NCBI GenBank assembly: GCA_946414095.1
Contig: CAMKNB010000005.1
Span: 1-57,957, forward strand
Direction: 5' to 3'
Source of the DNA: an uncultured Mycoplasmatota bacterium
GTDB lineage: Bacteria > Bacillota_I > Bacilli_A > RF39 > UBA660
Length of the DNA: 57,957 bases
Position numbers and translations under genes: made by a program. This document shows, one piece after another, positions 1,391 to 22,918 of this stretch (position 1 is its first letter; each line of letters starts with the position of its first letter). The notes beneath the pieces are model-generated. The model had not been told where the DNA came from. It worked only from the letters and a program-made list of their open reading frames with translations, and searched no databases.

Positions 1391-1418
1391 AAGAGCACTA
1401 AATGTAGTGTTCTTTTTT
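1391..1418 (+). terminator. Rho-independent terminator
   Basis: A 9-bp stem AGAGCACTA/TAGTGTTCT (one G-U pair) with a 4-base loop is followed by a run of T. It ends the surface protein gene. Confidence 0.85.
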
Positions 1419-1462
1419 TGCATTAGAATACAGTTTGTGTTAAAATTATTGTGGTGAATATT

Positions 1463-2218
1463 ATGAGAGCGTTAATTACAGGTGCTTCTAATGGACTTGG
1501 TCGTGATTTTGCTTTTAAGCTTGCAAAAGAAGGTTATGACTTAGTATTAGTAGCAAGAAGTGAGGAAAAATTAGATCATATTCAAAATGATTTAAAAAAT
1601 AACGTAGAAGTAATAACTGAAGTTATGGACTTAAGCATTAAAGAAAATGTTTATAAATTATATGAGAAATATAAGGGTACTGTAGATTTGTTAATTAATA
1701 ATGCTGGTTTTGGAGAATGTGGATTATTCAATAAAACTAGTTTGGATAATGAACTTAATATGATAGATTTAAATATAGTTTCACTACATATATTAACTAA
1801 ACTATTTTTAATTGATTTTATTAAAGAGGATAAGGGACAAATATTAAATGTTGCTTCACTTGCAGCATTTGAACCTGGACCATTAATGGCAACATATTAT
1901 AGTACAAAATCATATGTTTATAACTTAACAATGGCTATTTATGAAGAACTAAGGCGTAAAAAAAGTCATGTTAAAATTAGTGTATTATGTCCAGGACCTA
2001 CTGATACTGGATTTAATACACGTGCTAAAGTTCACTTTGGAGTAAAGTCATTAACTAGTGATTATGTAACTAGTTATACAATAAAAAAATTGAAAAGAAA
2101 TAAATTATTAATAATACCTAGTTTTAGGATGAAATTAGCTGTTTTTGGTGTTAGATTTATGCCAAGAAAACTTTTATTAAAAATGATTTATAATATTCAA
2201 GAAAGGAAGAGTAAATAA
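1463..2218 (+). CDS. Short-chain dehydrogenase/reductase (SDR)
   Basis: A cytoplasmic NAD(P)-dependent oxidoreductase of 251 residues. The classical SDR marks are visible: cofactor motif TGASNGLG (residues 6-13), NNAG (79-82), catalytic Ser132 and YYSTK with Tyr145 and Lys149, then PGPTDTGF after the active site. An in-frame GTG at 1451 lies within the ribosome binding site region (GTGGTGA), so the ATG at 1463 is preferred. An extended -10 box (TGTTAAAAT) sits at 1438-1446. It overlaps the next gene by one base, so it is co-transcribed with the two redox genes that follow. The substrate cannot be read from sequence; the length and C-terminal hydrophobic tail resemble the DltE/YqjQ-like SDR group. 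Confidence 0.88.
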   Translation: MRALITGASNGLGRDFAFKLAKEGYDLVLVARSEEKLDHIQNDLKNNVEVITEVMDLSIKENVYKLYEKYKGTVDLLINNAGFGECGLFNKTSLDNELNMIDLNIVSLHILTKLFLIDFIKEDKGQILNVASLAAFEPGPLMATYYSTKSYVYNLTMAIYEELRRKKSHVKISVLCPGPTDTGFNTRAKVHFGVKSLTSDYVTSYTIKKLKRNKLLIIPSFRMKLAVFGVRFMPRKLLLKMIYNIQERKSK

Positions 2219-21307: not shown

Positions 21308-21622
21308 ATGAAGAAAGAAATACCTAAAATATATGTAAATAATATAAGTAAAATACACAATAATAAAGAGGTATTTTATTCATATAAAGAAAATAATTTA
21401 GAAAAAAAAGAAATAGTGGAGTATCCAGATATTTATGAATTGCAAGATAGAATAGATGAAATTTTTAGATCTAAAGATTTTATATATAAAAAGAAACTAT
21501 TTATTAAAACTAAATATGGAGAAGGATACTATACTATAATATCTAAAAGTTATGATTATTTGCTTACAATAGATGGAGAAAAAATATATATTCAAAACAT
21601 ATTAGATATCAAAGATAATTGA
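21308..21622 (+). CDS. Hypothetical protein, 104 aa
   Basis: Not recognised. A lysine-, tyrosine- and isoleucine-rich soluble protein without signal peptide or membrane segment. It begins 16 bases after smpB and has no clear terminator between them, so it may be the end of the secG-rnr-smpB unit. It is one of very few genes here ending in TGA. The ribosome binding site is poor (ATATAATATTTAT region), so the start is uncertain. Confidence 0.55.
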   Translation: MKKEIPKIYVNNISKIHNNKEVFYSYKENNLEKKEIVEYPDIYELQDRIDEIFRSKDFIYKKKLFIKTKYGEGYYTIISKSYDYLLTIDGEKIYIQNILDIKDN

Positions 21623-21647
21623 TTTTTTATCGATTTTGTGGTATAAT
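21619..21647 (+). promoter_or_regulatory. Promoter of the manganese-type riboswitch
   Basis: TTGATT at 21619-21624 and TATAAT at 21642-21647 with a 17-base spacer and a TGG extended -10. Transcription should begin near 21654, just before the aptamer. Confidence 0.8.
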
Positions 21648-21656
21648 ATATACCGT

Positions 21657-21740
21657 TAAAAGGGAGTAGTTCTCATAATAATGATCTATATTTCGTCAAT
21701 ACGATTTCTTATCCGAATATAGTTTAGAACAAGACTTTTA
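21657..21740 (+). ncRNA. yybP-ykoY (manganese) riboswitch aptamer
   Basis: The 5' part reads AAAAGGGAGTAGTT and the 3' part GTTTAGAACAAGACTTTT, matching the conserved ends of the yybP-ykoY class (GGGGAGUAG...CAAGACC). P1 pairs 21657-21662 with 21735-21740, P2 pairs GTTCT (21669-21673) with AGAAC (21726-21730), and an upper stem pairs CTATATTTCG (21686-21695) with CGAATATAG (21714-21722) below a CAATACG loop. Family members sense Mn2+ and usually control exporters such as MntP or YoaB-type proteins. Here the downstream gene is a small unknown membrane protein. The class call is by eye. Confidence 0.72.
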
Positions 21741-21765
21741 CATGAAAATGTACAAGTCTTTTTTG
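21731..21765 (+). terminator. Expression-platform terminator of the riboswitch
   Basis: AAGACTTTTACAT pairs with ATGTACAAGTCTT (one mismatch) around GAAA and is followed by six T. The 5' arm reuses the 3' strand of aptamer helix P1, so ligand-stabilised P1 would block the terminator: an ON switch. Confidence 0.8.
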
Positions 21766-21798
21766 TTAGACTTGTAATAAAAAGGGGGAAATTTATAT

Positions 21799-22107
21799 AT
21801 GTGGCAAAAAAATGAAACATTATTAAAAGAAACTCGCTATAAGGAAATAGCTTGTTTAGCTGCATCTCTTGTTTCTACTTTACTTGCATATTTGAATTTA
21901 GCAGCATTATCACCAGAATCAATTAATCCAGAAACTGAAAAAATAATTGAGCAATTAGTCCTTACTATCAGTAAATTACCTGATTGGGTAAAAAATACTA
22001 CAATGATTGCTTCTGCAATTAGTGCTTTAGGTACAATTGGTATAGCTTTTGAGTATGAAGATAAATATAATGAATTAAAAAAACATAGTTATAAATTAAA
22101 ATTCTAA
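21799..22107 (+). CDS. Small two-TM protein under riboswitch control
   Basis: 102 residues, not recognised. Two hydrophobic segments (CLAASLVSTLLAYLNLAAL and TTMIASAISALGTIGIAFEY) flank a hydrophilic middle (SPESINPETEKIIEQL), with charged ends. AAAGGGGGAAAT precedes the ATG. The layout recalls small holin-like or SLATT-like proteins, but no known Mn exporter family is evident. Its control by a manganese-type riboswitch points to a role in metal homeostasis or in coping with Mn excess. This is inference only. Confidence 0.72.
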   Translation: MWQKNETLLKETRYKEIACLAASLVSTLLAYLNLAALSPESINPETEKIIEQLVLTISKLPDWVKNTTMIASAISALGTIGIAFEYEDKYNELKKHSYKLKF

Positions 22108-22124
22108 TAACAAAAAAAATATAA

Positions 22125-22190
22125 AAAAACACTTGAATTAATTAGAATATTATGATAATATCTAATTAACACAACGAAGTGTTTTTTTTT
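22125..22190 (+). promoter_or_regulatory. secE promoter inside nested inverted repeats
   Basis: TTAATTAGA...TCTAATTAA forms an inner palindrome around ATATTATGATAATAT, and AACACTT (22129-22135 area) can pair with AAGTGTT before a run of nine T. A promoter with -35 TTGAAT (22133-22138), 17-base spacer and TGA-TAATAT (22153-22161) lies inside. After the start site, AACAC-AACGAA-GTGTT plus T9 forms a short terminator-like hairpin directly before the secE ribosome binding site, so it may act as a terminator for the upstream gene and as an attenuator for secE. Confidence 0.55.
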
Positions 22191-22202
22191 GGAGGGATTT
22201 TT

Positions 22203-22379
22203 GTGAAGGCAATTAAAAAATTCTTTAAGGGAGTTAAAAAAGAAAGTAAGACTGTTAGATGGCCAGATGGAAAGGGATTAGTTAAGTATTCATGCATTAC
22301 TATTATAATGCTTGTATTCTTTGGATTATTCTTTTATGGACTTGATGCATTATTTGCATTTCTAGGGAGGTTATTCTAA
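22203..22379 (+). CDS. secE: Preprotein translocase subunit SecE
   Basis: 58 residues, single-membrane-segment SecE of the SecYEG channel. The amphipathic region FFKGVKKESKTVRWPDGKGL carries the conserved K-E-x-x-x-V-x-W-P pattern, followed by the membrane helix YSCITIIMLVFFGLFFYGLD. The GTG at 22203 is preferred over an upstream in-frame start because GGAGGG lies 7 bases before it. The stop overlaps the nusG ATG by one base. Confidence 0.95.
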   Translation: MKAIKKFFKGVKKESKTVRWPDGKGLVKYSCITIIMLVFFGLFFYGLDALFAFLGRLF

Positions 22380-22918
22380 TGGAAGAAAAGAAATTATGGT
22401 ATGTTGTTAATGCATATTCTGGACATGAACAAAAAGTTAAAGATTATTTAGAATCTAGACGTGAAAGCATGGGAATGGAAAATAATATTTTTAGAGTTAT
22501 TATTCCAGAAAGAACTGAAGTAGAGATTAAAGATGGCGTTAAAAAAGAAAAAGTTCGTAAAATGTTTCCAGGATATGTTCTAATAGAAATGGTTATGAGT
22601 GATGAAGCTTGGTATGTTGTTCGTAATACTCCAGGAGTTACAGGATTTATAGGTTCATCTGGAAAAGGAGCTAAACCAATTCCATTATCACCAGAAGAAG
22701 TTAAGAAATTTATTGGCGATGGTGAAGAAAAAGCTAAACCAATTAATACAAATGTTGAAGTTGGAGATATGGTATCTATTATAGATGGTCCATTCAAAGG
22801 TATGTCTGGTAAGATTGAAAGTGAAGATAAAGAAAATGAAAAACTTACTGTTCTTATTGACTTATTCGGACAAGAAACTCCAGTTGAAGTTGACTTAATA
22901 CAAGTTACAAAAATGTAA
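22379..22918 (+). CDS. nusG: Transcription termination/antitermination factor NusG
   Basis: 179 residues. NGN domain with WYVVNAYSGHEQKVK at the start and FPGYVLIEM, WYVVRNTPGVTGFIGS, then the KOW domain VGDMVSIIDGPFKGMSGKIE near 126-145 and QETPVEVDLIQV at the end. It binds RNA polymerase and tunes pausing and coupling to translation. Usual secE-nusG pairing, but the rplK gene that normally follows is 5.7 kb away. A strong terminator lies directly after the stop. Confidence 0.97.
   Translation: MEEKKLWYVVNAYSGHEQKVKDYLESRRESMGMENNIFRVIIPERTEVEIKDGVKKEKVRKMFPGYVLIEMVMSDEAWYVVRNTPGVTGFIGSSGKGAKPIPLSPEEVKKFIGDGEEKAKPINTNVEVGDMVSIIDGPFKGMSGKIESEDKENEKLTVLIDLFGQETPVEVDLIQVTKM

Follow-up and report, generated by a model that had tools for sequence, protein, structure and literature searches.

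What does a manganese-type riboswitch control when it stands before a gene that belongs to none of the transporter families usually found behind it? This question is raised by positions 21,657 to 22,107 of a 57,957-nucleotide stretch of DNA from an uncultured Mycoplasmatota bacterium, the whole of which is called the window here. We propose, as the probable answer, a Mn2+ (yybP-ykoY-class) transcriptional ON switch that drives an orphan membrane protein, one of a lineage-specific and mostly envelope-related set. Without metal, the 3' strand of helix P1 would pair into a terminator, and transcription would end in the U-tract near 21760. If Mn2+ is sufficient (Ca2+ may serve too, as for streptococcal mgtA), loops L1 and L3 would dock and P1 would be held, so that the terminator could not form and the 102-residue membrane protein would be made.

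The aptamer-like RNA occupies 21651-21745 on the plus strand, in the three-way-junction form of the manganese (yybP-ykoY) type. Covariance model R1, which was trained without the window, scores this RNA at 40.0 bits (E = 1.8e-7 over 110 kb, a rough value owing to shortened calibration), and the match spans all 99 model positions. For training, eight elements from relatives were aligned with P1, P2, a junction hairpin and P3 imposed; they lie before mntP (L049, L052, L053, L055, L060), P-type ATPases (L050, L051) and a cation exchanger, cax (L059), and, having been picked for preceding known metal genes, they are excluded as evidence on targets. The only Rfam family that matches the window sensibly is RF02617 (SSRC10), with 29.4 bits over its full length and E = 0.0017 in a 641-base search, below its gathering score of 56 bits. 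At the level of sequence, these matches, together with the L1 motif and the L3 adenosine described below, confirm a real Mn riboswitch-type element beyond chance resemblance and bear out the yybP-ykoY-like aptamer that a first-pass annotation had read from the letters.

The check which that annotation had proposed, a score with RF00080, came out negative: the model gave none for the window, also at relaxed thresholds, nor across the whole assembly, and found nothing in 33 fetched loci from relatives. This silence is a limit of the model and not evidence against the element, because RF00080 also misses elements directly before classical Mn/Ca genes, namely, with the Rfam 15 model, mntP (L004, L006, L014), P-type ATPases (L010, L099, L100) and cation exchangers (L098, L101); the test is thus uninformative for the window. 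It also means that the Rfam Mn-riboswitch model misses such elements across part of this bacterial class. A search of the relatives with RF02617 did lead to the elements directly before mntP (L004, L006, L014) and before a P-type ATPase (L010). Its matches at L007-L009, L011-L013, L015 and L016 were rejected as aptamers, being terminators, tRNA or coding sequence, and an R1 match at L085 (23.9 bits) was dropped since it lies inside a coding region. The window aptamer alone is no more stable than shuffles (z = 0.25), which may be expected of an AT-rich, metal-dependent fold, yet lends no support. The parts of the element are as follows.

21619-21647, plus strand: candidate sigma-70-like promoter, TTGATT-17-TATAAT, TG ahead of the -10, matching the consensus at 10 of 12 positions
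21657-21662, plus strand: P1 5' strand UAAAAG, pairing with 21735-21740
21662-21669, plus strand: L1 5' core GGGAGUAG, invariant in an 11-sequence alignment and near-invariant in a larger one
21669-21673, plus strand: P2 5' strand GUUCU, pairing with AGAAC at 21726-21730
21686-21722, plus strand: P3 hairpin with internal loop L3, CGUCAAUACG...AUCCG
21735-21740, plus strand: P1 3' strand CUUUUA, five of its six bases paired in the predicted terminator
21733-21758, plus strand: predicted intrinsic terminator hairpin, GACUUUUACAU / AUGUACAAGUC, followed by U6 to 21764; present in the MFE fold; -9.5 kcal/mol
21768-21776, plus strand: third arm AGACUUGUA, complementary to the terminator 3' arm at 21751-21759 and just 5' of the ribosome-binding site (p = 0.003)
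21780-21789, plus strand: putative ribosome-binding site AAAAGGGGGA, with GGGGG at 21784-21788
21799-22107, plus strand: orphan 102-aa protein with two predicted TM helices, ATG at 21799, 102 codons

Read in order, a promoter-like site is followed by AAAAGGGAGTAG, two helices, the hairpin terminator, the ribosome-binding site and the ATG. Transcription is predicted to start near 21654; promoter-like matches are no commoner in this region than in shuffles, and the promoter at 21619-21647 is suggestive only. The purine-rich 3' side of L1 (RAGAC) is present as CAAGAC at 21730-21735. The strands of P3 are 21686-21695 and 21714-21722, and between them L3 reads UCAAUAC at 21696-21702. To place this loop on the L. 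lactis numbering, we take as its register the one given by the L. lactis sequence together with the residue names of the structure cited below. UCAAUAC then fits U39 C40 A41 .. C45 with the UCA core kept; among the L. lactis L3 contacts, the base differs only at U44, a phosphate contact, and A21698 would by this register be the counterpart of the Mn-coordinating A41. In the L. lactis structure, Mn2+ is held at the M_B contacts by the phosphates of G9, U39, C40, U44 and C45 and by N7 of A41 (PMC9190785).

The pairing is also found in the relatives. P1 covaries among them (helix 1, 98.9% of cells paired) and P2 varies on both sides (helix 2), with compensatory differences that can be read directly: GUUCU/AGAAC in the window, GCUG/CAGC in L050 and GUCC/GGAC in L058. 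Over 53 distinct elements, 91.3% of pair cells hold standard pairs and 291 cells have both sides changed, against 92 in shuffles; because the alignment had been fitted to the model, the covariation figure is inflated. Sliding the structures brings standard pairing down to 31-45%. Allowing for the fitted alignment, covariation argues for P1, P2 and P3.

The terminator 5' arm GACUUUUACAU includes the P1 3' strand at 21735-21740, so P1 and the terminator are mutually exclusive, which upholds the earlier reading of a terminator that shares a strand with P1. The same overlap is seen in most of the elements. A strand common to P1 and the terminator is the layout of an ON switch, and by analogy the window switch would work in the ON direction; indeed, the same arrangement is known from L. 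lactis (PMC9190785, PMC11087558).

Set beside known systems, the window RNA has the L1 GGGAGUAG, the L3 UCA and the docked-loop architecture of the yybP-ykoY class (RF00080), as well as a P1 switch helix common to the terminator, as in L. lactis yoaB (PMC9190785, PMC6754395, PMC11087558). It differs in going unscored by RF00080, in being very AT-rich, in having a target outside the known Mn genes and in its junction, where P4 is absent and only three helices meet, not four. P4 is not required of every member of the class, because the streptococcal mgtA aptamer also has a three-way junction, and it binds Ca2+ too (PMC9495176). The streptococcal mgtA Mn/Ca riboswitch thus shares with the window both the three-way junction and the shared-strand terminator (PMC9495176; PMC11434433), but its target is a P-type ATPase, whereas that of the window is an orphan 2-TM protein. 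In S. pneumoniae, control of the Mn/Ca ATPase gene mgtA by a yybP-ykoY riboswitch was shown experimentally (cited in PMC11434433). SSRC10, to which the window aligns at full length although below the gathering cut-off, was described as an S. pyogenes sRNA with a Northern signal, located between SPyM3_0439 and SPyM3_0440, a 'putative calcium transporter' (PMC3675131). It is probably the S. pyogenes counterpart of the mgtA Mn/Ca switch, and RF02617, an sRNA by its Rfam entry, seems to belong to this riboswitch class.

The surroundings of the element bear on how the gene came under its control.

21308-21622, plus strand: upstream neighbour, a 104-aa protein without known family, outside the switch
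approx. 21620-22125, plus strand: insertion of about 0.5 kb with promoter, switch and gene, absent from same-genus genomes
22179-22918, plus strand: downstream neighbours secE (22179 to 22379) and nusG (22379-22918), with their own short leader hairpin

In 10 genomes of the genus, a gene for a ~100-aa protein follows smpB and lies directly before the secE leader; one of them, G004, has a NusG that is 100% identical. In further genus genomes, the place directly before the leader is taken by smpB (one) or another gene (three), and none carries the insertion. Since genomes of the same genus lack it, promoter, switch and gene arrived as a piece of about 0.5 kb, and the cassette would have entered recently, upstream of secE-nusG; no target-site duplication was apparent. 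Most genomes of the genus retain the ~100-aa protein (21308-21622 in the window) between smpB and secE. A search for the origin of the window element led to contig C12 of its own genome, which carries a decayed paralogue of the aptamer without the 102-aa gene (L061, at C12:41158 in G000, minus strand). Its DNA is 80% identical over 103 bases; it scores 16.6 bits with R1, has no RAGAC and has lost the L1 3' side and P1. This copy has a lemA-like gene before it and, behind it, a gene for a 291-aa kinase-like protein. The genome holds three intact elements (C1, C5, C25).

The 102-aa protein is as the first reading had it, a two-helix membrane protein outside the usual regulon of MntP, YoaB/TerC and P-type ATPases. 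Its hydrophobic segments cover about residues 16-36 and 64-84; an ORF of at least 102 codons appears in 0 of 20,000 base shuffles of the segment, and a random origin is unlikely. Pfam, PHROG and NCBIfam yielded no family for it, and the comparison with Pfam and NCBIfam showed no resemblance to any known family of Mn transporters or chaperones. A search of about 430 distinct genomes from its genus, family and class found no homologue, and phages and viral contigs gave no match. A scan of GTDB species, able to detect close relatives only, returned just a 36-residue match in Methylophaga, which we read as chance, as are weak tblastn matches in G094 and G085, antisense in RNA-polymerase-like and P-type-ATPase-like genes. 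A single-sequence AlphaFold model has a pLDDT of 72.6, and the PDB fold search gave no match (best E 0.74).

Because it has no homologue, the role of this protein has to be judged from the company it keeps. R1 detects elements across the class. Outside the window's family, all seven clear non-training elements (L069, L070, L078, L079, L080, L084, L095) precede P-type ATPases or a cation exchanger. Inside the family, where L102 was left unassigned at a contig end, a usual Mn/Ca transporter follows only 4 of 38 assignable elements (L098-L101), and the other 34 stand before non-transport genes. The chance that all seven outside elements would be canonical is C(11,7)/C(45,7), about 7e-6, if all 45 are independent, and their relatedness makes this figure optimistic.

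The 34 non-canonical targets divide into 15 lipoproteins, which fall into three families; SPFH (Band_7) proteins, of which there are three in three genera; one NfeD gene with an SPFH gene behind it; three orphan TM proteins, that of the window among them, and one further TM protein (L111); four deoxyribosyltransferase-like (PF15891) and two AdoMet-decarboxylase-like (PF02675) proteins; two of one shared uncharacterised family; two of a family of 240-265 residues; and one other. Several lipoprotein elements of the genus are near-identical copies, so part of the recurrence is duplication. Recurrence across genera is seen as well: SPFH proteins and one histidine-rich lipoprotein family in three genera each, and the PGEHI lipoprotein family behind the switch in at least two. 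The SPFH/NfeD loci are L103/L114, L104, L128 and L083; among them are the SPFH genes of three genera and, in another genome, the NfeD gene with SPFH behind it. In G383, two switches stand 0.6 kb apart before adjacent genes. AdoMet-decarboxylase-like genes lie behind the switch in two genera (L106, with PF02675 for its protein, and L107), where a link between Mn and polyamines is possible.

In the family expansion that we propose, the Mn switch would activate surface lipoproteins, membrane-scaffold proteins of the SPFH/NfeD kind and other genes outside transport, and an envelope response to metal or alkaline stress is the most plausible purpose; a purely envelope reading is incomplete, because the products of 11 of the 34 non-canonical targets are probably soluble. 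The window gene appears to belong to this lineage-specific set rather than to encode a dedicated Mn transporter, and our best guess for its product is a membrane protein with an accessory or stress-adaptation role. A class of riboswitch regarded as serving metal efflux may thus have been redeployed before surface and membrane-organisation proteins. The resulting list of candidate Mn-responsive genes holds SPFH and NfeD proteins, three lipoprotein families, and AdoMet-decarboxylase-like and deoxyribosyltransferase-like proteins; in the open-licence literature we found no paper describing such a regulon.

The position of the gene makes a different role possible, a new small Mn-handling protein such as an efflux helper or Mn chaperone, as the first-pass annotation had suggested, and we consider this unlikely. 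Known targets of the switch class are mostly Mn/Ca transporters, and the gene lies directly behind the terminator with its own ribosome-binding site and no second promoter. In its genome, MntP was not detectable (the assembly is 86% complete) and two Ca-type P-type ATPases both stand without such a switch, so that an exporter role could be vacant. However, the protein has no homologue in the searched collections; MntP, MntE, MgtA, YoaB/TerC and UPF0016 proteins have the same switch class upstream, but the window protein matches no family in Pfam or NCBIfam. Its predicted TM segments hold no cluster of the metal-ligand residues Asp, Glu, His and Cys, the switch within the family usually precedes lipoproteins and other non-transport genes, and the closest relatives in the genus live without the gene.

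The ligand itself could be altered in the non-canonical elements. It is improbable, in our judgement, that these, including the window's, form a variant aptamer for Ca2+, alkaline pH or another ion and not for Mn2+. Their targets are unlike the classical regulon, the streptococcal three-way-junction switch also binds Ca2+ (PMC9495176), and P2 hardly departs from GUUC/GAAC in the non-canonical group and is variable in the canonical one. Against such a change of signal, nearly all of the non-canonical elements examined retain the L1 core and the L3 UCA (L3 is CCA with the adenosine kept in L088, and L076 departs), and canonical and non-canonical elements co-occur within genera g39 and g181. Mn2+ would be the signal on our preferred reading of an ON switch for a mostly envelope-related set.

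After the U-tract and just before the ribosome-binding site, the window and many non-canonical elements carry the third arm. In the window, its hairpin has -7.8 kcal/mol, and equally stable ones arise in 0 of 200 shuffles. By an automatic parser, a third arm with p <= 0.05 occurs in 10 of 29 non-canonical against 0 of 20 canonical elements (Fisher 0.003), and one with p <= 0.01 in 8 of 29 against 0 of 20 (Fisher 0.015); parsers were tried in succession, on related elements. With an earlier one the counts were 13 of 29 against 0 of 21 below 0.01, and with a stricter terminator parser 6 of 21 against 0 of 14; we used the automatic one since the stricter discarded many real terminators. The enrichment in non-canonical elements is a lead. 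The third arm cannot act on termination itself, because it is made afterwards; a role in mRNA stability or in blocking refolding of the leader is possible. The arm and the terminator strand that it complements lie within 21751-21776 in the window, and such an arm was also seen at L081, L082, L096, L103, L105, L106, L108, L109 and L111.

A more specific picture, which we offer tentatively and would not yet expect to hold in full, is that a sub-class of Mn riboswitches, with P2 near-fixed as GUUC/GAAC and often a third arm that re-pairs the terminator 3' strand in read-through mRNA, spread in one uncultured family, possibly with an altered ligand, and there brought lipoproteins, SPFH/NfeD scaffolds and orphan membrane proteins, that of the window included, into a metal-responsive regulon.

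It is very improbable that the RNA works chiefly in trans, as a short terminated sRNA, with the downstream gene incidental: SSRC10 was first reported as an sRNA with a Northern signal (PMC3675131), the decayed copy at C12 precedes a gene with its own promoter-like sequence and some elements have a second such sequence before the gene, but an overlap of P1 with the terminator is what marks a cis switch, experiments have shown the mgtA element of S. pneumoniae to be a riboswitch (cited in PMC11434433), and the window gene follows directly with no second promoter.

The second promoter-like sequence between terminator and gene is found in L092, L093 and L094 (TTGATT-17-TATAAT in L092), where the switch may add to a basal promoter. 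At L094, a glmS ribozyme (1406-1552, minus strand, 81.5 bits) adjoins the Mn-type switch and is divergent from it.
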